A DNA stretch of 64,000 nt from the NCBI GenBank assembly GCA_036417435.1, contig CM070900.1:32279496-32343495 (forward strand), written 5' to 3'. The DNA comes from Inia geoffrensis (lineage: Eukaryota; Chordata; Mammalia; Artiodactyla; Iniidae). Of this stretch, positions 4,526-52,046 are shown one piece after another. The notes under the pieces were generated by a model that saw nothing but the letters and a program-made list of their open reading frames with translations, ran no database searches and was not told where the DNA came from. Position numbers and translations under genes: made by a program. Positions within the stretch are counted from its first letter, which is position 1; every line of letters starts with the position of its first letter.

Positions 4526-4856
4526 ATACAGCTCAATATCAAAAAAAAAAAAAACCCAATCAAAACATGGGCAGAAAACCTAAATAGATATTTCTCCAAA
4601 GAAGATATACAGATGGACAATAGTCACATGAAAAGGTGTTCAACATTGATAATTATTAGAGAAATGCAAATCAAAGTTACAATGAGGTAACTCATACAAT
4701 TCAACAACAAAAAAACAAACAACCCAATCGAAAAATGGGCAGAAGACCTTAGACATTTCTCCAAAGAAGACACACAGACAAACAGACATCCAATAGGCAC
4801 ATGAAAAGATGCTCAACATCATTAATTATTAGAGAAATGCAAATCAAAACTACGAG
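4526..4856 (+). repeat. Imperfect tandem duplication inside L1 ORF2
   Basis: Two adjacent stretches encode the same ORF2 region: CCCAATCAAAACATGGGCAG ... ATTATTAGAGAAATGCAAAT, then CCCAATCGAAAAATGGGCAG ... ATTATTAGAGAAATGCAAAT. They differ clearly from each other, including small indels. That is more than expected of a fresh tandem duplication. Confidence 0.75.
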
Positions 4857-5574
4857 GTATCACCTTACACGGGTCAGAATGGGCATCATTAAAAAGTCTA
4901 CAAATAACAAATGCTTGAGAGGGTGTGGAGAAAAGGGAACCCTCCTCCACTGTTGGAGGGAATGTAAATTGGTGCAGCCACTATGGAGAACAGTATGGAG
5001 GTTCCTTAAAAATCTACAAATAGAGTTACCATATGATCCAGCAATCCCACTCCTGGGTATATATCCAGAGAAAACTGTAACTTGAAAAATACATGCACCC
5101 CAATGTTCACAGCAGTTCTACTTAAAATAGCCAAGATATGGAAGCAACCTAAATATTCATTGACATGTGAATGGATAAAGAAGATGTGGTGTACATATAC
5201 AATGGAATATTACTCAGCCACAAAAAGAATGAAATAATGCCATTTGCAGAAACATGCATGGACTTAGAGATTATCAAACTAAGTGAAGTAAGTCATACAA
5301 AGACAAATATCATATGGTATTACTTATATGTAGACTCTAAAAAACGGATACAAATGAACTTATTTACAAAACAGGAAGAGACTTAAAGAAATAGAAAACA
5401 AACGCAGTTACCAAAGGGGAAGGAGGGTGGGAGAGGGATAAATTAGGAGTTTGGGATTAGCAGATACAAACTACTATATATAAAACAGATAAGCATTAAG
5501 GGCCTACTGTATAGCACCGGGAACTATATTCAATATTCAATATCTTGTAATAACCTATAATGGAAAAGAAACTG

Positions 5575-5588
5575 AAAAAAGTATATAT
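5575..5588 (+). repeat. Target-site duplication, 5' copy, of the L1 at 5589-12611
   Basis: AAAAAAGTATATAT here is repeated exactly at 12612-12625. The sequence outside both copies belongs to the same older L1 3' tail, so the pre-insertion site can be read directly. Confidence 0.93.
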
Positions 5589-7276
5589 AGGCAAATAAGG
5601 AAGATGGCGGAAGAGTAAAACGCGGAGATCACCTTCCTCCCCACAGATACACCAGAAATATATCTACACGTGGAACAGCTCCTACAGAACACCTACTGAC
5701 CGCTGGCAGAAGACCTCAGACCTCCCAAAAGGCAAGAAACTCCTCACGCACCTGGGTAGGGCAAAAGAAAAAAGAATAAAAAGAGACAAAAGAATAGGGA
5801 CACGACCTGCACCAGTGGGAGGGAGCGGTGAAGGAGGAAAGGATCCCACACACTAGGAAGCCCCTTTGCGGGCGGAGACTCCGGGTGGCGGAGGGGGAAA
5901 GCTTCGGAGCCACGGAGGAGAGCACAGCAACAGGGGTGCGGAGGGCAAACCGGGGAGATTCCCGCACGGAGTATCGGTGCCGACCAGCAGTCACGAGGCC
6001 GAGAGGCTTGTCTGCTCACCCGCCAGGGCGGGCGGGGCTGGGAGCTGAGGCTCGGGCTTCGGTTGGAGCACAGGGAGAGGACTGGGGTTGGTGGCATGAA
6101 CACAGCCTGCAGGGGATTAGTGCGCTACGGTTGGCCGGGAGGGAGTCCGGGAAAAAGACTGGACCTGCCCAAGAGGCAAGAGGCTTTTTCTTCCCTCTCC
6201 GTTTCCTGGTGCGCAAGGAGAGGGGATTAAGAGTGCTGCTTAAAGGAGCTCCAGAGATGGGCGCCAGCCGCGGCGTTCAGCGCACACAGCAGAGACGGGC
6301 ATGAGACGCTAAGGCTGCTGCTGCCGCCACCAAGAAGCCCGTGTGTGGGCACTGGCCACTATCCACAACCCCCTTCTGGGGAGCCGGTGTAGCCTGCCAC
6401 TGCCAGGGTCCCGGGATCCAGAGACAGATATGCCGGGAGAATGCAAGGCACGCCTCAGGCTGCTGCAACGTCACGCTGGCCTCTGCTGCCGCAGGCACGC
6501 CCCCGCCTCCGTACCCCCCCCCCCCCCCCCCCGGCTTGAGTGAGGCAGAGGCCCCAAGGAGCTGCTCCTTTAACCCCATCCTGTCTGAGTGAAGAACAGA
6601 TGCCCTCTGGCGACCTACATGCAGAGGCAAGGCCAAATCCAAACCTGAGCTCCGGGAGCAGTGCGAACAAAGAGGAGAAACTGAAATCTCTCCCAGCAGC
6701 CTCAGAAGCAGCGGATTAAAGCTCCACAATCAACTTGATGTACCCTGCATCTGTGGAATACATGAATAGACAACGAATCATCCCAAATTGAGGAGGCTCT
6801 GGTGTTGCAGCCAGGAGTCAGTGCTGTGCCTCTGAGGTGGGAGAGCCAACTCAGGACACTGGTACACAAGAGACCTCCCAGCTCCACGTAATATCAAACC
6901 GTGAAAATCTCCCAGAGATCTCTATCTCAACACCAGCACCCAGCTTCACTCAACGACCAGCAAGCTACAGCGCTGGACACCCTATGCCAAACAACTAGCA
7001 AGACAGGAACACAACCCCACCCATTAGCAGAGAGGCTACGTAAAATAATAATAAGTCCACAGACACCCAAAAACACACCACCAGGCGTGGACCTGCCCAC
7101 CATAAACACAAGATCCAGCCTCATCCACCAGAACACAGGCACTAGTCCCCCCCACCAGGAAGCCTACACAACCCACTGAACCAACTTTAGCCACTGGGGA
7201 CAGACACCAAAAACAACGGAAACTACGAACCTGGAGACAGCAAATAGGAGACCTCAAACACAGTAAGATAAGCAAA
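5589..7276 (+). promoter_or_regulatory. L1 5' UTR with internal promoter region, CpG-rich
   Basis: In L1 elements this region holds the internal RNA polymerase II promoter. About 5820-6310 is strongly GC-rich and still dense in CpG (for example GGGCGGAGACTCCGGGTGGC), in contrast to the AT-rich surroundings. A 19-C run lies at 6514-6532. Open frames through this GC-rich DNA are by-products of composition. The part 6600-6795 is colinear with the other long L1, which lacks 5732-6599. Confidence 0.75.
6514..6532 (+). repeat. Poly-C tract (19 C) in L1 5' UTR
   Basis: An uninterrupted run of C lies between GTA and GGCTTGAG. The G-rich complement could form unusual structures. Its length is likely to be unreliable in sequencing. 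Confidence 0.9.
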
Positions 7277-8188
7277 ATGAGAAGACAGAAAAACACACAG
7301 CAGATGAAGGAGTAAGATAAAAATCCAGCAGAGCTAACAAATGAAGAGGAAATAGGCAGTCTACCTGAAAAAGAATTCAGAATAATGATAGTAAAGATGA
7401 TGCAAAATCTTGGAAATAGACAAAATGCAAGAAACATTTAACAAGGACCAAGAAGAACTAAAGATGAAACAAGCAATGATGAACAACACAATAAATGAAA
7501 TTAAAAATACTCTACATGGGATCAATAGCAGAATAACTGATGCAGAAGAACGGATAAGTGACCTGGAAGACAAAATAGTGGAAATAACTATTGAAGAGCA
7601 GAATAAAGAAAAAAGAATGAAAAGAACTGAAAAGTCTCAGAGACCTCTGGGACAACATTAAACGCACCAACTTTCGAATTATAGGGGTTCCAGAAAAAGA
7701 AAGGGACTGAGAAAATATTTGAAGAGATTATAGTTGAAAACTTCCCTAATATGGGAAAGGAAATAGTTAATCAAGTCCAGGAGGCACAGACAGTCCCATA
7801 CAGGATAAATCCAAGGGGAAACACGCCAAGACACATATTAATCAAACTTTCAAAAACTAAACACAAAGAAAACATATTAAAAGCAGCAAGGGAATAACAA
7901 CAAATAACACATAAGGGAATCCCCATAAGGTTAACAGCTGATCTTTCAGCAGAAACTCTGCAAGCCAGAAGGGACTGGCAGGACATATATAAAGTGATGA
8001 AGGAGAAAAACCTACAACCAAGATTACTCTACCCAGCAAGGATCTCATTCAGATTTGATGGAGAAATTAAAAACTTTACAGACAAATAAAAGCTGAGAGA
8101 GTTCAGCACCACGAAACCTGATTTACAACAAATGCTAAAGGAACTTCCCTAGGCAGGAAACACAAGAGAAGGAAAAGACCTAAAATAA
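7277..8188 (+). pseudogene. L1 ORF1 pseudogene
   Basis: The expected start ATG is at 7277, opening with MRRQKNTQQMKE, then an in-frame stop after 12 codons. The frame continues with IGSLPEKEFRIMI and is then shifted. The coiled-coil part is open at 7410-7661 (NSRITDAEERISDLEDKIVE), and the RRM and C-terminal parts (the IIGVPEK region and FRFDGE-like codons near 8040-8070) lie in other frames. The end of the gene is read at TAA 8186-8188, 22 nt before the ORF2 ATG, the normal L1 spacing. Intact ORF1 would be an RNA-binding trimer of the L1 ribonucleoprotein. Several stops and frameshifts rule out a working product. Confidence 0.85.
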
Positions 8189-8210
8189 CAAACCCAAAAC
8201 AATTCAGAAA

Positions 8211-11200
8211 ATGGGAATAGGAACATACATATCGATAATTACCTTAAATGTAAATGGATTAAATGCTCCCACCAAAAGAAATAGACTGGCTGAATGGATA
8301 CAAAAACAAGACCCATATATATGCCGTCTACAAGAGACCCAATTCAGACCTAGAGACACATACAGAATGAAAGTGAGGGGATGGAAAAAGATATTCCATG
8401 CAAACAGAAACCAAAAGAAAGCTGGAGTAGCAATTCTCATATCAGACAAAATAGACTTTAAAATAAAGACTATTACAAGAGACAAAAAAGGACACTACAT
8501 AATGATCAAGGGATCAATCCAAGAAGAAGATATAACAATTGTAAATATTTATGCACACAACATAGGAGCCCCTCAAAACATAAGGCAAATACTAACAGCC
8601 ATAAAAGGGGAAATCGACAGTAATACATTCATAGTAGGGGACTTTAACACCCCACTTTCACCAATGAACAGATCATCCAAAATGAAAATAAATAAGGACA
8701 CACAAGCTTTAAATGATACATTAAACAAGATGGACTTAATTGATATTTATAGGACATTCCATCCAAAAACAACAGAATACACATTTTTCTCAAGTGCTCA
8801 TGAACATTCTCCAGGATAGATCATATCTTGGGTCACAAATCAAGCCTTGGTAAATTTAAGAAAATTGAAATTGTAACAAGTGTCTTTTCTGACCACAACA
8901 CTATGAGGCTAGATATCAATTACAGGAAAAGAGCTGTAAAAAATACAAACACATGGAGGCTAAACAATACACTACTTAATAACACAGTGATCACTGACGA
9001 AATCAGAGGAAAAAAAAAATACCTAGAAACAAATGACAATGGAGACACGACGACCCAAAATCTATGGAATGCAGCAAAAGCAGTTCTAAGAGGGAAGTTT
9101 ATAGCAATACAATCCTACCTTAAGAAGCAGGAAACATCTTGAATAAACAACCTAAACTTGCACCTAAAGCAATAAGAGAAAGAAGAACAAAAAAACCCCA
9201 AAGTTAGCAGAAGGAAAGAAATCATAAAAATCTGATCAGAAATAAATGAAAAAGAAATGAAGGAAACGATAGCAAATATCAATAAAACTAATAGCTAATT
9301 CTTTGAGAAGATAAACAAAATTGATAAACCATTAGGCATACTCATCAAGAAAAAAGGGAGAAACCTCAAATCAATAGAATCAGAAATGAAAAAGGAGAAG
9401 TAACAACTGACACTGCAGAAATACAAAAGATCATGAGAGATTACTACAAGCAACTCTATGCCAATAAAATGGACAACCTAGAAGAAATGGACAAATTCCT
9501 ACAAAGGTATAACCTTCCAAGACTGAACCAGGAAGAAATAGAAAATATGAACAGACCAATCACAAGCACTGAAATTGAAACTGTGATTAAAAATCTTCGA
9601 GCAAACAAAAGCCCAGGACCAGATGGCTTCACAGGTGGATTCTATCAAACATTTAGAGAAGAGCTAACACCTATCCTTCTCAAAATCTTCCAAAATATAG
9701 CAGAGGGAGTAACACTCCCAAACTCATTCTATGAGGCCACCATCACCCTGATACCAAAACCAGACAAAGATGCCACAAAAAAAGAAAACTACAGGCCAAT
9801 ATCACTGACGAACATAGATGCAAAAATCCTCAACAAAATACTAACAAACAGAATCCAGCAGCACGTTAAAAGGATCATACACCATGATCAACTGGGGTTT
9901 ATTCCAGGAATGCAAGGATTCTTCAATATACGCAAATCAATCGAGATACACCATATTAACAAACTGAAGGAGAAAAACCATATGATCATCTCAATAGATG
10001 CAGAGAAAGCTTTCGACAAAATTCAACACCCATTTATGATAAAAACCCTTCAGAAAGTAGGCATAAAGGGAACTTTCCTCAAAATAATAAAGGCCATATA
10101 TGACAAACCGACAGCCAACATCATCCTAATGGTGAAAAACTGAAAGCATTTCCACTAAGATCAGGAACAAGACAAGGTTGCCCACTCTCACCACTCTCAG
10201 TCAACACAGTTTTGGAAGTTTTAGCCACAGCAATCAGAGAAGAAAAGGAAATAAAAGGAATCCAAATCAGAAAAGAAGAAGTAAAGCTGTCACTGTTTGC
10301 AGATGACATGATATTATACATAGAGAATCCTAAAGATGCTACCAGAAAACTACTAGAGCTACTCAATGAATTTGGTAAAGTAGCAGGATACAAAATTAAT
10401 GCACAGAAATCTCTGGCATTCCTATACACTAAGGATGAAAAATCTGAAAGTGAAACCAAGAAAACACTTCCATTTACCACTGCAACATAAAGAATAAAAT
10501 ATATAGGAATAAACCTACCTAAGGAGACAAAAGACCTGTATGTAGAAAATTATAAGACACTGATGAAAGAAATTAAAGATGATACAAATAGATGGAGAGA
10601 TATACCATGTTTTTGGATTGGAAGAATCAACATTGTGAAAATGACTCTACTACCCAAAGCAATCTACAGATACAATGCAATCCCTATCAAACTACCACTG
10701 GCATTTTTCACAGAACTAGAACAAAAAATTTCACAATTTGTATGGAAACACTAAAGACCCCAAATAGCCAAAGCAATCTTGAGAAAGGAAAACGGAGCTG
10801 GATGAATCAGGCTCCCTGACTTCAGACTATACTACAAAGCTACAGTAATCAAGACAGTATGGTACTGGCACAAAAACAGAAAGATAGATCAATGGAACAG
10901 GATAGAAAGCCCAGAGATAAACCCACACACATATGGTCACCTTATCTTTAATAAAGGAGGCAGGAATGTACAGTGGAGAAAGGTCAGCCTCTTCAATAAG
11001 TGGTGCTGGGAAAACTGGACAGGTACATGTTAAAGTATGAGATTAGATCACTCCCTAACACCATACACAAAAATAAGCTCAAAATGGATTAAAGACCTAA
11101 ATGTAAGGCCAGAAACTATCAAACTCTTAGAGGAAAACATAGGCAGAACACTCTATGACATAAATCACAGCAAGATCCTTTTTGACCCACCTCCTAGAGA

Positions 11201-12241
11201 AATGGAAATAAAAACAAAAATAAACAAATGAGACCTAATGAAACTTCAAAGCTTTTGCACAGCAAAGGAAGCCATAAAGAAGACCAAAAGACAACCCTCA
11301 GAATGGGAGAAAATATTTGCAAATGAAGCAACTGACAAAGGACTAATCTCCAAAATTTACAAGCAGCTCATGCAGCTCAATAACAAAAAAACAAACAACC
11401 CAATCCAAAATTGGGCAGAAGACCTAAATAGACATTTCTCCAAAGAATATATACAGACTGCCAACAAACACATGAAAGAATGCTCAACATCATTAATCAT
11501 TAGAAAAATGCAAATCAAAACTACAATGAGATATCATCTCACATCATTCAGAATGGCCATCATCAAAAAATCTAGAAACAATAAATGCTGTAGAGGGTGT
11601 GGAGAAAAGGGAACCCTCTTGCACTGCTGGTGGGAATGTGAATTGGTTCAGCCACTATGGAGAACAGTATGGAGGTTCCTTAAAAAACTACAAATAGAAC
11701 TACCATATGACCCAGCAATCCCACTACTGGGCATATACCCTGAGAAAACCATAATTCAAAAAGAGTCATGTACCAAAATGTTCATTGCAGCTCTATTTAA
11801 AATAGCCTGGAGATGGAAACAACCTAAGTGCCCATCATTGGATGAATGGATAAAGAAGATGTGGCACATATATACAATGGAATATTACTCAGCCATAAAA
11901 AGAAATGAAATTGAGGGCTTCCCTGGTGGCGCAGTGGTTGAGGGTCCACCTGTCGATGCAGGGGACACTAGTTCGTGCCCCAGTCTGGGAAGATCCCTCA
12001 TGCTGCAGAGCGGCTGTGCCCGTGAGCCATGGCCACTGAGCCTGCACATCCGGAGCCTGTGCTCTGCTACGTGAGAGGCCACAACAGTGAGAGGCCCACA
12101 TACCGCCAAAAAAAAACCCCAAAAAACAAAATTGAGCTATTTGTAATGAGGTGGATGGACCTAGAGCCTGTCATACACAGTGAAGTAAGTTAGAAAGAGA
12201 AAGACAAATACCGTATGCTAACACATATATATGGAATTTAA
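8211..12241 (+). pseudogene. L1 ORF2 (endonuclease and reverse transcriptase) pseudogene
   Basis: ORF2 nicks DNA and reverse-transcribes L1 RNA at the nick. The ATG at 8211 opens the endonuclease with ITLNVNGLNAPTKR, RLQETQFRPRD and VGDFNTPLSP, so the catalytic Asn, Glu and Asp/Asn residues are visible. A frameshift at about 8820 interrupts it; FSDHNTMRLD is in another frame (8828-9142). After stops, the fingers and palm of the reverse transcriptase are open at 9433-10143 ([47 protein letters not shown]). The catalytic FADDMILY is at 10212-10490, so both Asp codons survive. The cysteine-rich segment [15 protein letters not shown] lies near 11590-11640. A SINE splits the last part. At least five breaks make it non-functional. 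Confidence 0.9.
11916..12128 (+). mobile_element. CHR-2-type SINE, plus strand, inside L1 ORF2
   Basis: The tRNA-derived head GGCTTCCCTGGTGGCGCAGT starts the element. It has the B-box-like GTTCGTGCCCC and ends ATACCGCC followed by an A-rich tail. Short direct repeats flank it (AAATTGAG at 11908-11915 and 12129-12136). It inserted after the host L1. Confidence 0.93.
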
Positions 12242-12611
12242 GAAAAAAAAATGTAATGAAGGACCTAGGGGTAAGACAGGAATAAAGTCACAGACCTACT
12301 AGAGAATGGACTTGAGGATATGGGGAAGGGCAAGGGAAAGCTATGACAAAGTTAGAGAGTGGCATGTACATATATACACTACCAAACGTAAAATAGATAG
12401 CTAGTGGGAAGCAGCCGCATAGCACAGGGAGATCAGCTCGGTGCTTTGTGACCACCTAGAGGGGTGGGATAGGGAGGGTGGGAGGGAGGGAAACGGAAGA
12501 GGTAAGAGATATGGGAACATATGTATATTTACAACTGATTCACTTTGTTATAAAGCAGAAACTAACAAACCATTGTAAAGCAATTATACTCCAATAAAGA
12601 TGTAGAAAACC

Positions 12612-12618
12612 AAAAAAG

Positions 12619-12625
<7 letters not shown>
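12612..12625 (+). repeat. Target-site duplication, 3' copy, of the L1 at 5589-12611
   Basis: AAAAAAGTATATAT, identical to 5575-5588. It runs straight into a TG repeat of the older L1 tail. Confidence 0.93.

Positions 12626-12658
<33 letters not shown>
12626..12658 (+). repeat. (TG)n microsatellite
   Basis: About 16 TG units at the junction between the L1 TSD and the older L1 tail. Confidence 0.95.
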
Positions 12659-12660
<2 letters not shown>

Positions 12661-12757
12661 CATATATATAACTGAATCACTTTACCGTACACGTGAAACA
12701 TTGTAAATCAACTATATTTCAATAAAAATTAAAAAAAATAAAAACAACAGCCACCAA
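12626..12757 (+). mobile_element. Older L1 3' tail, right part (continues from 5588)
   Basis: After the TG tract, ATATATAACTGAATCACTTT and TTGTAAATCAACTATATTTC complete the 3' UTR broken off at 5588. It ends in CAATAAAAATT and an A-rich tail. No convincing TSD for this older element is visible; a weak candidate is AAACAAAACA near 4032 and 12765. Confidence 0.88.
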
Positions 12758-44724: not shown

Positions 44725-45069
44725 CGTCCAAACAAGTATGTTAACTAATCCCTATTTCATTGACATAAGCCATTCTGTTTGCTCCTCACTCATCCCTCTG
44801 TTGCTTGAATTTCTTAAGAAAATATGTAACAAAGTGCATTTCTTTTGTTAATAAAGTACCCAACCTTAAAAATTAATTTGTCTCAATTTAGCTCTCATCA
44901 TGATGAATCTAGTTCAAGTAATTTTACTATTGTCAAAAAAATTTCATCTTTAGGCCATCATTTTATTAGGCGACAAATGAACACGTCATTACAACTAAAT
45001 AAACACTAGTTATTTCAATAAGTGTGTGCAAATACCATGATAAATTATTTAGGAGATTTTTCCATTAAT
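44725..45069. other. Single-copy AT-rich sequence
   Basis: Nothing recognised. It is the left flank of the second long L1. Confidence 0.45.
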
Positions 45070-45079
45070 AAGAATGAGG
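45070..45079 (+). repeat. Candidate target-site duplication, 5' copy, of the second long L1
   Basis: AAGAATGAGG matches 52037-52046 exactly. It lies about 200 bp upstream of recognisable L1 sequence. Its left context (AAT followed by AAGAAT) fits an L1 endonuclease site with one mismatch. Confidence 0.6.
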
Positions 45080-45275
45080 TCAGAGCCACCTTGCCTTCTT
45101 CCAGCTAACTTTATATTAACGAAGTTGAGAGGGAAGGCGTCTGAAGCCTTCAAATGCCATAGAAAACTTCTGTCATATTGTTCAGCAGCAAGCTTAGCAG
45201 TAATTTCTCATCTCTTCCAGAAAATAACTGTCAATCAGTTAGTAGAAAAACATTTAATTTTAATTAAATTATTGA
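45080..45275 (+). other. Possible 5'-transduced segment ahead of the L1
   Basis: This stretch lies between the candidate 5' TSD and the start of recognisable L1 5' UTR. It has no match in the other L1 copy. If the TSD is right, it was carried in from the source locus; otherwise it is ordinary flank. Confidence 0.45.
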
Positions 45276-46588
45276 GGGGGCTCCTTCAAGATGGCAGAGG
45301 AATAAGACGTGGAGATCACCTTCCACACCACAAATACATGAAAACTACATCTACATTTGGAGCAACTCCTACAGAACACCTACTGAATGCTGGCAGAAGA
45401 CCTCAGACTTCCCAAAAGATGCCCTCAGGCGACCTACATGCAGAGGTGGGGCCAAATCCAAAGCTGGACCCCAGGAGCTGTGTGAACAAAGAAGAGAAAG
45501 GGAAATCTCTCCCAGCAGCCTCAGAAGCAGCGGATTAAAGCTCCACAATCAACTTGATGTACCCTGCATCTGTGTAATACCTGAATAGACAACGAATCAT
45601 CTCAAATTAAGGAAGTGGACTTTAGGAGCAACTGTAGACTTGGGGTTCGCTTTCTGCATCTAATTTGTTTCTGGTTTTATGTTTAACTTAGTTTAGTATT
45701 TAGAGCTTATAATCATGGTAGATTTGTTTATTGATTTGGTTGCTCTCTTCCAGCTTTTATTTTTTATATATATATATTTTTCTTCTTTTTTCTCTTTTTG
45801 TGAGTCTGTATGTGTATGCTTCTTTGTGTGATTTTGTCTCTATAGCTTTGCTTTTGCCATCTGTCCTAGGGTTCTCATTGTCCTTTTTTTCTTTTCTTTT
45901 GTTTTTTTTTAGTATAGTTTATAGTGCTTGTTATCATTGGTGGATTCGTTTTTTAGTTTGGTTACACTCTTCTTTCTTTCTCTCTTTTAAAAAATTATTT
46001 TCTCAATTTTCCTTATTTTTAATAATTTTTTCTACTTTAATAACTTCCTTCCTTCCTTCCTCTCTTTCCTTCTTTCTCCCTTTTATTCTGAGTCATGTGG
46101 CTGATAGGCTTTTGGTGTTCTGGCTGGGTGTCAGGCCTCAGCCTCTGAGGTGGGAGAGCCAAGTTCAGGACATTGGTCCACCAGAGACCTCCCAGCCCCA
46201 CGTAATATCAAACGGTGAAAGACCTCACAGAGATCTCCATCTCAAGGCTAAGACCAGCTCCACTCAATGACCAGCAAGCTACACTGCTGAACACCCTATG
46301 CCAAACAACTAGCAAGACAGAAACACAACCACACCCATTAGCAGAGAGGCTGCCTAAAATCATAATAAGGTCACAGACACCCCAAAACACACCATTGGAC
46401 GTGGTCCTGCCCACCAGAAAGACAAGATCCAGCCTCATCCATCAGAACACAGGCACCAGTCCCCTCCATCAGGAAGCCTACACAATCCACTGAACCAACC
46501 TGACCCACTGTGAGCAGACACCAAAAACAATGGGAACTATGAACCTGCAGCCTGTGAAAGAGACCCCAAACACAGTAAGTTAAGTAAA
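45276..46588 (+). promoter_or_regulatory. L1 5' UTR, internally deleted relative to the other long copy
   Basis: The segment aligns with 5589-5731, then jumps to the equivalent of 6600. A block from about 45615 to 46107 is T- and CT-rich, ending in a run of TTCC and CTTT units and then CTGATAG. The open frame at 45731-46270 is a translation of this pyrimidine-rich DNA and not a membrane protein gene. From 46108 the sequence again matches the other copy (CCTCTGAGGTGGGAGAGCC). Confidence 0.8.
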
Positions 46589-47515
46589 ATAAGAAGACAT
46601 AGAAATACAGAGCAGATGAAGGAGCAAGGTAAAAACCCATCAGACCAAACAAATGAAGAGGAAATAGGCAGTCTATCCGAAAAAGAATTCAGAGTAATGA
46701 TAGTAAAGATCCAAAATCTTGCAAATAGAATGGAGAAAATATAAGAAATGTTTAACAAGGATCTAGAAGAACTAAAGAGCAAACAAAGACTGATGAACAA
46801 CACAATACATGAAATTTAAAATTCTCTAGAAGGAATCAATAGCAGAATAACTGAAGCAGAAGAACTGATAAGTGAGCTGGAAGATAAAACAGTGGAAATA
46901 ACTACCACAGAGCAGAATAAAGCAAAAAGAATGAAAAGAATTTAGGACAGTCTCGGAGAACTCTGGGACAACATTAAATGCACCAACATTGGAATTATAG
47001 GGGTCCCAAAAGAAAAATAGAAAACAAAAGGGACTGAGAAAATATTTGAAGACTCTATAGTTGAAAACTTCCCTAATACAGGTAAGAAAATAGTCAATCA
47101 AGTCCAGGAAATGCAGAGGGTCCAATTCAGGATAAATCCAAGGAGAAACACGCCAAGACACATATTAATCAAATTATCATAAATTAAGTACAAAGAAAAT
47201 ATATTAAAAGCAGCAAGGAAAAAGCATCATTTAACATACAAGGGAAACCCCATAAGGTTAACAGCTGATCTTTCAGCAGAAAATCTGCAAGCCAGAAGTG
47301 AGTGGCAGGACATATTTAAAGTGATGAAAGGGAAAAACCTACAATCAAGATTACTCTGCCCAGCAAGGATCACATTCAGATTCAGTGGGGAAGTTAAAAC
47401 TTTTAGAGATAAGCAAAAGCTAAGAGAATACAGCACCACCAAACCAGCTCTACAACAAACGCTAGAGGAACTTCTCTGGGCAGGAAACACAAGGGAGGGA
47501 AAAGACTTACAATAA
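46589..47515 (+). pseudogene. L1 ORF1 pseudogene without a start codon
   Basis: The position matching the ORF1 ATG of the other copy reads ATA (46589-46591). Downstream, the IGSLSEKEF-type N-terminal codons, the coiled-coil stretch (NSRITEAEELISELEDK) and the C-terminal basic region (47321-47515) are recognisable in different frames, with stops such as the one in AAAATATAAGAAATG near 46735. The end is read at TAA 47513-47515, just before ORF2. Intact ORF1 would bind L1 RNA as a trimer. No complete product is possible. Confidence 0.85.
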
Positions 47516-47537
47516 CAAACCGAAGACACTAAAGAAA

Positions 47538-50500
47538 ATGGTAACACGAACAGACATTGATAACTACCTTAAATGTAAATGGATTAAATGCTCCCACCAA
47601 AGACACAGACTGGATGAATGGATACAACAACAAGACCTGTACATATGCTGTCTACAAGAGACCAACTTCAGACCTAGGGATACATACAAACTGAAAGTGA
47701 GGGGATGGAGAAAGACATTCCATGCAAATGGAAATCAAAAGAAAGCTGGAGAAGCAATTTTCATATCAGACAAAACAGACTTTAAAATAAAGACTATTAC
47801 AAGAGACAGAGAAGGACACTACATAGTGATCAAGGAATCAATCCAAGAAGAAGACATAACAATTGTAAATATTTATGCACCCAACATAGGAGCACCTCAA
47901 TACATAAGGCAAATGCTAAGAGCCATAAAAGGGGAAATCGACAGTAACACAATCATAGTAGGGGACTTTAACACCCCACTTTCACCAAGGGACAGATCAT
48001 CCAAAATGAAAATAAATAAGCAAACACAAGCTTTAAATGATACATTAAATAAGATGGATTTAATTGATATTTACAGTACATTCCATCCAAAAAAAGCAGA
48101 TTACACTTTCCTCTCAAGTGCTCATGGAACATTCTCCAGGATAGATCATATCTTGGGCCACAATCAAGCCTTGGTAAATTTAAGAAAATTGAAATCGCAT
48201 CAAGTATCTTTTCTGACCACAATGTTATAAGACTAGATATTAATTACAGGAAAAAATCTGGAAAAAATACAAACATGTGAAGTCTAAACAATACACTATT
48301 AAATAACCAAGAGATGACTGGAGAAATAAAAGAGAAAATCAAAAAGTACCTAGAAACAAATGAAAATGAAAACACAATGCAAAACGTATTGGATGCATTA
48401 AAAGCAGTTCTAAGAGGGAAGTTTATAGCAATACAATCCTACCTTAAGAAACAAGAAACATTTCAAAGAAACAAGCTAACCATATACCTAAAGCAATTAG
48501 AGAAAGAAGAACAAAAGTACTCCAAAGTTAGCAGAAGGAAAGAAATTATAAACGTCAGATCAGAAATAAATGAAAAAGAAATGAAGGAAATGATAGCAAA
48601 GATCAATAAAACTAAAAGCTGGTTCTTTGAGAATATAAAAAAAAATGATAAACCATTAGCCAGACTCATCAAGAATATAAGAGAGAAACTCAAATGAATA
48701 GAATTAGAAATGGAAAAGGAGAAATTACAGCTGACACTGCAGAAATACAAAGGATCATGAGAGATTACTGCAAGCAACTATATGCCACTAATATGGACAA
48801 GCTGGAAGAAATGGACAAATTCTTAGAAATGCACAACCTTCCGAGACTAAACAAGGAAGAAATAGAAAATATAAACAGACCATTCACAAGCACTGAAATT
48901 GAAACTGTGATTAAAAATCTTCCAACAAACAAAAGACCAGGACCAGATGGCTTCACAGGCGAATTCTACCAAACATTTAGAGAACAGCTAACACCTATCC
49001 TTCTCAAACTCTTCCAAAACATACCAGAGGGAGGAACACTCCCAAACTCATTCTAGAAGGCCACCATCACCCTGATACCAAAACCAGACAAAGATGCCAC
49101 AAAAAAAGAAAACTACAGGCCAATATCACTGATGAACATAGATGCAAAAATCCTCAACAAAATACTAACAAACAGAATCCAGCAGCACGTTAAAAGGATC
49201 ATACACTGTGAGCAAGTGCGGTTTATCCCAGGAATGCAAGGATTCTTCTATATATGCAAATCAATCAATGTGATAACCCATGTTAACAAATCCAAGGAGA
49301 AAAACCATATGATCATTTCAACAGACGCGGAAAAAGCTTACCAAAAAAAATTCAACACACATTTATGATAAAAACCCTCCAGAAAGTAGACATAGAGGGA
49401 AGTTACCTCAACATAATAAAGGTCATATATGACAAACCCACAGCCAACATTTTTGTCAATGGTGAAAAACTGAAACCATTTTCACTACGATCAGGAACAA
49501 GACAAGGCTGCCAACTCTCACCAGTATTATGCAACACAGTTTTGGAAGTTTTAGCCACAGAAATCAGAGAAGAAAAAGAAATAAAAGGAATCCAAATTGG
49601 AAAAGAAGAAGTAATACTGTCACCATGTGTAGATGACATGATACTCTACATAGAGAATCCTAAAGATGCTACCAGAAAACTACTAGAGCTAATCAATGAA
49701 TTTGGTAAAATTGCAGGATACAAAATTAATGCACAGAAATCTCTTGCATTCCTATACACTAATGATGAAAAATATGAAAGAGAAATTAAGGAAACACTCC
49801 CATTTACCATTGCAATAAAAAGAATAAAATACCTAGGAATAAACCTACCTAAGGAGACAAAAAACCTGTATGCAGAAAACTATAAGACTTTGATGAAAGA
49901 AATTAAAGACGAAACAAACAGATGGAGAGATATACCACGTTCTTGGATTGGAAGAATCAACATTGTGAAAATGACTATGCTACTCAAAGCAATCTATAGA
50001 TTCAATGCAATCCCTATCAAACTACCAAGGGCATTTTTCACAAAACTAGAACAAAAAATTTCACAATTTATATGGAAACACAAAAGACCCCGAATAGCCA
50101 AAGCAATCTTGAGAAAGAAAAATGGAGCTGCAGGAATCAGGCTCCCGGACTTCAGACTATACTACAAAGCTACAGTAATCAAGACAGTATGGTACTGGCA
50201 CAAAAACAGAAATATGGATCAATGGAACAGGATAGAAAGCCAAGAGATAAACCCACGCACATATGGTCACCTTATCTTTGATAAAGGAGGCAAGAATATA
50301 CAATGGAGAAAAGATAGTCTCTTCAATAATTGGTGCTGGGAAAACCGGATAGCTACATGTAAAAGAATGAAATTAGCATACTCCCTAACACCATACAGAA
50401 AAATAACATCAAAATGGATTAAAGACCTAAATGTAAGGCCAGACACTATAAAACTCTTAGAGGAAAACACAGGCAGAAGACTCTATGACATAAATCACAG

Positions 50501-51727
50501 CAAGATCCTTTCTGACAGCCCTCCTAGAGGAATGGAAATAAAAACAAAAATAAACAAATGGGACCTAATGAAACTGAAAAGCTTTTGCACAGCAAAGGAA
50601 CCTACAAACAAGATGAAAAGACAACCCTCAGAATGGGAGAAAATATTTGCAAACGAAGCAACTGACAAAGGATTAGTCTCCAAAATATACAAGCAGCTCA
50701 TGCGCTCAATATCAAAAAAAGAAATAACCCAATCCAAAAATGGGCAGAAGACCTAAACAGACATTTCTCCAAAGAAGATATACAGATTGTCAACAAGCAC
50801 ATGAAAGGATGCTCAACATCATTAATCATGAGAGAAATGCAAATGAGAACTATAATGAAGTATCACCTTACACCAGTCAGAATGGCCATCATCAGGGACT
50901 TCTCTGGTGGTGCAGTGGTTAAGAATCTGCTGCCAGTGCAGGGGACACGGGTTCAAGCCCTGGTCTGGGAGGATCCCACATGCTGTGGAGCAACTGAGCC
51001 TGTGCACCACAACTACTGAGCCTCTGCTCTGGAGCCCATGAGCCACAACTGCTGAGCCCACGTGCCACAATTACTGAAGCCTGCACGCCTGGAGCCCGTG
51101 CTCTGCAACAGGAAAAGCCACCGCAATGAGAAGCCCATGCAGTAACGAAGACCCAATGCAGCCAAAAATAAATAAATAAATTAAAAAAAAAAAAAAAGAG
51201 TGGCCATCATCAAAATATCTACAAATAATAAATGCTGGAGAGGGTGTGGAGAAAAGGGAACCCTCTTGCACTGCTGGTGGGAACGTAAATTGATACAGCC
51301 ACTATGTAGAATAGTATGGAGGTTCCTCAAAAAACTAAAAATAGAACCACCATAGGACCCAGCAATCCCACTACTGGGCATATACACTGAGAAAACCATA
51401 ATTCAAAAAGAGTCATGTACCACAATGTTCATTGCAGCTTTATTCACAGTAGCCAGGACATGGAAGCAACCTAAGTGTCCATCAACAGATAAATGGATAA
51501 AGAAGATGTGACACATATATAAAATGGAATATTACTTAGCCATAAAAAGAAACGAAATCGAGTTATTTGTAGTGAGGTGGATGGACCTAGAGTCTGTCAT
51601 ACAGAGTGAAGTAAGTCAGAAAGAGAAAAATAAATACCGTATGCTAACACATATATGTATGGAATCTAAAAAAAAAAAAGGTTGTGAAGAACCTAGCGGC
51701 AGGACAGGAATAAAGACACAGATGTAG
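47538..51727 (+). pseudogene. L1 ORF2 pseudogene, with a long open reverse-transcriptase stretch
   Basis: The ATG at 47538 is kept, but the first codons are in a shifted frame, so the conserved LNVNGLN motif is lost. The endonuclease resumes (CLQETNFRPRDTY, NIYAPNIGAPQYIR, VGDFNTPLSPRDRSS) until a frameshift before SDHN near 48215. Further open parts are 48314-48697, 48694-49056 ([15 protein letters not shown]), 49132-49368 (palm start, [10 protein letters not shown]) and 49365-50756, 463 codons. The last holds [12 protein letters not shown] and a mutated catalytic box, CVDDMILY in place of FADDMILY, with both Asp codons retained. A SINE at 50895-51200 then cuts off the C-terminal domain, in which the last Cys of the knuckle is also changed (TGGGAACGT). 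It cannot give full ORF2. Confidence 0.9.
50895..51200 (+). mobile_element. Long CHR-type SINE (CHR-1-like) inside L1 ORF2
   Basis: GGGACTTCTCTGGTGGTGCA head, GGGTTCAAGCCCTGG B-box-like segment, extended GAAGACCCAATGCAGCC part and AAATAAATAAATAAATT tail. Exact 12-bp TSDs TGGCCATCATCA lie at 50883-50894 and 51201-51212. Confidence 0.95.
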
Positions 51728-52036
51728 AGAATGGACTTGAGGACACGGGGAGGGGGAAGGGTAAGCTGGGACAAAGTGAGAGAGTGGCATGGACATATAT
51801 ACACTACCAAATATAAAACAGATAGCTAGTGGGAAGCAGCCGCATAGCACAGGGAGATCAGCTCGGTGCTTTGTGACCACCTGGAGGGGTGGGATAGGGA
51901 GGGTGGGAGGGAGGCGCAAGAGGGACGAGATATGGGGATGTATGTATATGTATAGCTGATTCACTTTGTTTTATGGCAGATGCTAACACACCATTGTAAA
52001 GCAATTATACTGCAATAAAGATGCTTAAAAAAAAAA

Positions 52037-52046
52037 AAGAATGAGG
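52037..52046 (+). repeat. Candidate target-site duplication, 3' copy, of the second long L1
   Basis: AAGAATGAGG directly after the A-tail, matching 45070-45079. The first A bases merge with the tail. Confidence 0.6.

Follow-up and report, generated by a model that had tools for sequence, protein, structure and literature searches.

Why does one of two L1 retrotransposons in the same stretch of DNA lack a large part of the 5' untranslated region (UTR) that the other retains? The question arises in 64,000 nucleotides (nt) of the Inia geoffrensis genome (assembly GCA_036417435.1, contig CM070900.1, positions 32,279,496 to 32,343,495 of the forward strand), the whole of which we call the window. 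It carries two L1 copies, both on the plus strand: L1a, at 5.6 kb, contains the segment in question (block A), and L1b, at 45 kb, does not. Our analysis makes it very likely that L1b is a spliced copy. The fuller reading, by which L1b would be an insertion of the type known in human as SpIREs (spliced L1 copies that have integrated) and would stem from a chimeric, multiply spliced host-L1 RNA, appears likely to us, and its splicing part, taken by itself, we hold with high confidence.

Block A and its recurrent junction

The L1 features are listed by position in the window. A slash within letters or positions marks a breakpoint or proposed boundary, and the two parts of the L1 5' region that flank block A are called exon 1 and exon 2.

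5575..5588, plus strand: 5' target-site duplication of L1a, AAAAAAGTATATAT (partner at 12612-12625; 14 of 14 positions identical)
5589..12611, plus strand: L1a, block A kept, inserted in the 3' end of an older L1
5589..5731, plus strand: exon 1 of L1a, 143 nt, with AAGATGGC at 5601
5732..6599, plus strand: block A, putative GC-AG intron of 868 nt (donor AAAAG/GCAAGA, acceptor GAACAG/ATG), the GC-rich part of the L1 5' UTR (63% GC, 48 CpG)
6600..6797, plus strand: exon 2 of L1a, 3' edge uncertain by a few nt
45276..45418, plus strand: exon 1 of L1b, with AAGATGGC at 45288
45418..45419, plus strand: exon 1/exon 2 junction of L1b, block A absent
45419..45614, plus strand: exon 2 of L1b
45276..52026, plus strand: L1 body of L1b
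52027..52038, plus strand: A tail of L1b, 12 A

Alignment of L1a with L1b revealed a single gap of 868 nt, block A, and about 195 nt downstream a gap of 493 nt in the reverse direction (block B, present in L1b). This confirmed the starting observation of a sequence-only reading of the window, namely that the 45 kb L1 lacks 868 nt (5732-6599) present in the 5.6 kb L1 and that the edges of this segment read GC-AG. L1b passes from ...CTTCCCAAAAG directly to ATGCCCTCAGG (45418/45419); L1a at the same point shows ...CTCCCAAAAG, then the 868 nt (GCAAGAAACT...GTGAAGAACAG) and then ATGCCCTCTGG. The possible 2-base shift of the breakpoints mentioned in the same reading is real: the gap slides by 2 nt (AG on both sides), which gives three equivalent registers, and only one of them reads GC...AG. 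Among 200,000 random deletions of 300-1500 nt in the window, with all registers considered, 0.15% displayed AG/G[TC]...AG edges, and 0.065% combined a terminal AG with a donor score at least as high as that of block A, on an approximate scoring matrix entered from general knowledge. As in SpIREs, the interior of the 5' UTR is missing from L1b between edges that resemble splice sites. Because the single L1a/L1b pair, taken alone, is only suggestive of a spliced origin, the case for splicing rests on the recurrence of the junction in other copies.

The genome of origin (2.75 Gb) was searched with a 241-nt query spanning the junction, and the best 40 of 4044 first-look candidates were scored. All 40, L1b included, span the junction. 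At different loci, 35 of the 39 other copies have the same junction with zero intron bases left, a count that takes in a few copies with substituted or added edge bases (e.g. L020, L041, L043). The other four (L013, L023, L031, L047) retain 6-7 nt, GGAACAG, GAACAG or GAAAAG, which end in AG. The 40 are the top scorers for a query that itself contains the junction and so favours exact ones; they give no estimate of how common block-less copies are or of what proportion has the exact join. Twenty block-less copies were fetched at about 9 kb; within 3 kb, block A was matched in 0/20 and block B in 20/20. The junction is thus not unique to the 45 kb copy, and its presence in independent insertions, as known for SpIREs, supports the earlier claim that this copy came from a spliced L1 RNA. 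Searches of external DNA (viral contigs and genome contigs by pattern and protein, plasmids and phages by distant blastn) revealed no usable related L1; one relative, at 38%, was left unused.

Block-bearing copies were collected with exon 1 and the start of block A as query, and the best 40 of 1964 matches were scored, L1a included. The donor is GC in 38 of the 39 other copies and GT in one (L073), so the GC donor is the rule among these block-bearing L1s. L1a is the member of this set whose target-site duplication was looked at: it adjoins the L1, and its score was reached by 0 of 300 shuffles.

Non-L1 leaders before block-less copies

The insertion that contains L1b would start at 45080, with 196 nt of non-L1 sequence ahead of the L1. 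Segments and flanks of this leader are as follows.

45070..45079, plus strand: probable 5' target-site duplication of L1b, 10 nt, AAGAATGAGG, score 10, ending 196 nt upstream of the L1 5' end
45080..45140, plus strand: leader segment alpha, 3' edge approximate; it alone matches G000:C31:14587921-14587974
45141..45220, plus strand: leader segment beta1, ending in TTTCTCATCTCTTCCAG; common to L1b, L026, L092 and L093, other sequence in L025
45221..45275, plus strand: leader segment gamma, immediately adjoining the L1; present in all five family members
52037..52046, plus strand: 3' copy of the L1b duplication, AAGAATGAGG, overlapping the tail by its first two A

No duplication was found close to the L1 start of L1b; the one listed was found by scanning 420 nt upstream, and its end falls, to within a few nt, at the edge of the stretch that L1b and L026 have in common. 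L1b is framed, like SpIREs, by a probable target-site duplication (10 nt) and an A tail (12 A). Its insertion site reads AT/AAGA by eye, possibly a loose variant of the L1 endonuclease motif.

Among the 40 block-less copies, L026 displays the same 194 nt upstream (93% identical), and in L025 two parts of the L1b leader, alpha and gamma, flank a different middle segment. A genome search with the 196-nt leader gave 7 matches in 6 loci (L1b, L026, L025 in two pieces, C6:39319268, C5:135334528 and C31:14587921). The two contiguous matches at C6 and C5, L092 and L093, also precede L1s without block A; in this leader family block A is absent in 5/5 members (L1b, L025, L026, L092, L093). The alignment of L092 with L1b begins at the exact leader start, 45080, while L026 continues further 5', possibly a shared start or a truncation. 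Another leader, of 98 nt, is common to L016 and L029, and L035 and L046 have 310 nt of upstream sequence in common. In total, leaders were assigned to 9/40 block-less copies (L1b, L025, L026, L016, L029, L035, L046, L019, L027), two of them (L019, L027) from their duplication, with no partner leader among the 40. The same non-L1 leader thus stands before several insertions with differing flanks and duplications, the pattern by which L1 5' transduction is recognised. When 480 nt upstream were compared (E-value at most 1e-5, match end within 25 nt of the L1 start), shared-leader groups took in 7/40 block-less and 0/40 block-bearing copies (Fisher p = 0.012; sets not age-matched).

The duplications end at -196 (L1b), -243 (L025) and -100 (L029 and, by eye, L016), each time at the start of the sequence that the copy has in common with a relative. 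That of L025 comprises 15 nt with one mismatch and ends right before GGGCAGCAA, where similarity to L026 begins; the candidates of L029 and L016 have one mismatch each, and in L046 an exact 12-nt word at -405 recurs at its A tail. The duplications of L1b, L025, L029 and L016 carry weight because each abuts a segment that another copy also has. Duplication scores were 10 for L1b, 8 for L029, 11 for L019, 12 for L025 and 14 for L027. The 3' end is known in 16 block-less copies (L1b and 15 of the 9 kb set); among them, six candidate duplications lie away from the L1 start and four next to the L1 (L010, L013, L015, L023). Lone duplications away from the L1 start were seen in L019 (-209) and L027 (-99).

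The C31 locus matches leader bases 6-58 only, that is, alpha. The match breaks off 5 nt short of a GTGAGT, and the stretch there looks CpG-rich by eye. The alignment of C31 with L026 starts at GGCAGCAA, which is also, give or take a few nt, where the L025 duplication ends and the similarity of L026 to L025 begins. This match makes alpha a putative host first exon. Alternative splicing would be the simplest account of the different middle segment in L025, because L025 has other sequence where L1b, L026, L092 and L093 end in the pyrimidine-rich TTTCTCATCTCTTCCAG. The L1b leader, common wholly or in part to four other block-less copies, was probably spliced from a host gene.

We propose that a host promoter would give rise to an RNA that starts with the host first exon (alpha) and runs on through the sequence just upstream of an L1 (beta1-gamma) into the L1 itself. 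The spliceosome would remove block A, a GC-AG intron in the GC-rich part of the 5' UTR, from the L1 portion, and L1 proteins would copy the RNA to a new site by target-primed reverse transcription. The new insertion would consist of the leader, a block-less L1 and an A tail, with a 10-nt duplication at the site.

Weighing the alternatives

The splice junction within L1 might be real and the leaders nevertheless have been joined by template switching or trans-splicing instead of host-promoter transcription. Such an origin would agree with the search for a source: beta1-gamma beside a source L1 was not found among the 7 matches in 6 loci (6 first-look candidates; C31 read over 301 nt). It would also agree with the L1 bodies of the leader families, which are not clearly closer to each other than average. 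L1b and L026 score 0.885 in body closeness, rank 165/231, at a mean of 0.891; the ranks are 137/231 for L025-L026, 84 for L1b-L025 and 23 for L016-L029. In shared rare variants L1b-L025 (rank 104/231) and L016-L029 (106/231) likewise do not rank high, but L1b-L026 and L025-L026 do, with ranks 5 and 4 of 231. Little signal of body closeness is expected because the internal branches are very short, and a clade test by L1 body gave no clear resolution. The fusion point at the L1 5' end, moreover, is about the same in five copies, as expected for DNA upstream of one source L1, and an Rfam search revealed 0 families in eight leader-bearing loci or at 44900-45700. These points make template switching or trans-splicing an unlikely origin of the leaders. 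A known small RNA as leader template was considered and rejected on the same Rfam result (0 matches).

Besides the missing source locus and the undistinguished L1 bodies, several further points weigh against a chimeric, spliced RNA as the origin of L1b. The acceptor of block A is low in pyrimidines (52% in the last 50 nt), and the query used to rank the block-less candidates contained the junction. L035 showed no duplication within 500 nt; none was found for L026, whose start is placed by similarity. For 6/16 block-less copies with a known 3' end (L011, L018, L020, L021, L024, L028) the duplication is unclear. With exchanged 3' flanks as control, scores of at least 10 occurred in 13/182 and of at least 8 in 80/182 comparisons, and the duplications of L1b and L029 alone are not decisive. 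The block-bearing control is probably younger than the block-less set, because it is closer to its query (93-96% as against 89-93%), and the enrichment of leaders in block-less copies is for this reason an indication, not proof.

Block A might also have been lost without any splicing, if a single ancient DNA deletion with AG end repeats had produced a master L1 without the block, from which every block-less copy then descended. In favour of such a master, many copies have one junction in common, and the ends share AG, as in many small deletions. Against it stand the four of 39 copies with 6-7 nt left at the 3' edge, up to an AG, and the conserved donor in block-bearing copies. Protein records, interpreted at the codon level and not from DNA, suggest further acceptors for this donor and the use of a second donor. 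They involve two further features of the window.

5752..5761, plus strand: possible second donor CTGG/GTAGGG, first intron base 5756; its use is suggested by protein record P0091
45615..46107, plus strand: block B, 493 nt, 30% GC, T-rich, absent from L1a; acceptor region with a long pyrimidine tract

A protein search with a chance open frame across the junction gave 366 matches, of which the best 120 were examined. The exact join was found in 10 of these 120 (P0003-P0007, P0009-P0011, P0013, P0014), and P0078 fits it if the A-run gained one A and one exon 2 base changed. About 7 nt of the intron end are kept in three or four records (P0023, P0032, P0048, possibly P0008). Two records of the third search, P0178 and P0202, link exon 1 to the acceptor that closes block B, and P0091 links the second donor, which lies 24 nt inside block A, to that acceptor as well. 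P0012 has other internal joins that no clean junction fits. A tblastn comparison of the 208 records from three protein searches showed that 25 continue from exon 1 into block A. P0198 and P0204 switch to non-L1 sequence near the acceptor at the block B end; these could be spliced host exons or truncations.

Offspring of one master should form a clade. In an exon 2 test with 13 block-less and 76 other rows (31/120 records, P0011 among them, dropped for coverage), the value was 0.215 for block-less records and 0.185 for random sets, with 85% of random sets at or below it. The exon 1 test, for which coverage was sufficient in 9/15 block-less records and 31 others, gave 0.133 versus 0.116, with 87% of random sets at or below. 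The block-less records appear as scattered as random sets, with no single tight clade, in tests that are weak because the stretches are short and free of protein constraint, a weakness that counts in favour of a master copy. Taken with the varied edges, donors and acceptors, we regard the master deletion as improbable.

A segmental duplication of whole loci would by itself fit the shared upstream DNA, but the similarity ends at about -100, -194, -243 and -309 with different DNA beyond, and there are alternative middle segments, which makes it a highly improbable source of the shared leaders.

Block B was considered as a second intron. Its GT-AG reading would be GGAG/GTGGAC...GATAG/GC, and the L1a join lacking it lies at about 6794-6797. 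When this join was searched in the genome, 35 of the 40 scored matches covered one side only, as copies with block B would, and five spanned it: L1a itself; L094, which has the identical join; and L095-L097, joined differently, at a TGAG common to both sides. The donor is weak (0.46 on the approximate scale), and block B is at most a possible second intron. Most of 23 protein records (P0123-P0145) keep the 5' edge of block B and continue in T-rich sequence without the part found in L1b, a separate block B variant. As to the surroundings of L1a (about 4800-12740), the remainder of the older L1 in whose 3' end it is nested seems to resume at about 12626-12740, and a SINE-like repeat (short interspersed element), possibly CHR, interrupts L1a at about 11915-12115.

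Comparison with known spliced L1s

Human SpIREs, as described in PMC5860796, use one donor and several acceptors and are generally evolutionary dead ends. One human SpIRE locus, RAP1GDS1-L1PA2, was revived by a host promoter, according to PMC13174262. No title on SpIREs in a non-primate was found in the literature searched, which leaves out most subscription papers. The same kind of splicing as in human SpIREs would operate here in another genome, on a different L1 5' UTR and with a GC-AG junction. We tentatively suggest that spliced L1s may not be dead ends: host promoters might repeatedly drive and re-mobilise them or their parents, a sizeable share would carry a host leader (9/40 of those examined), and the conserved GC donor may sit between the harm done by splicing and its use in transcription. 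If so, splicing of the L1 5' UTR would be a convergent feature, and capture of a host promoter would be a recurrent escape from it and not a curiosity. Block state and leaders can be counted in any mammalian assembly.

The insertions analysed here resemble the human SpIREs of PMC5860796 (SpIRE97/622, 97/790 and 97/976): they lack the interior of the 5' UTR between splice sites, combine one donor with several acceptors, have a full-length 5' start and occur as many independent copies. They differ in genome and 5' UTR, in the donor (GC, not GT), in the 868-nt block and in the frequency of non-L1 leaders in the sample. With the chimeric RAP1GDS1-L1PA2 SpIRE (PMC13174262) they have in common several insertions in which host-derived 5' sequence is fused to an L1 that lacks the spliced block. 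In that system the source L1 lies in a host intron and RNA reads were found there, whereas here the source was not found; set against that one locus, the 40 block-less copies include three leader families and two single cases.
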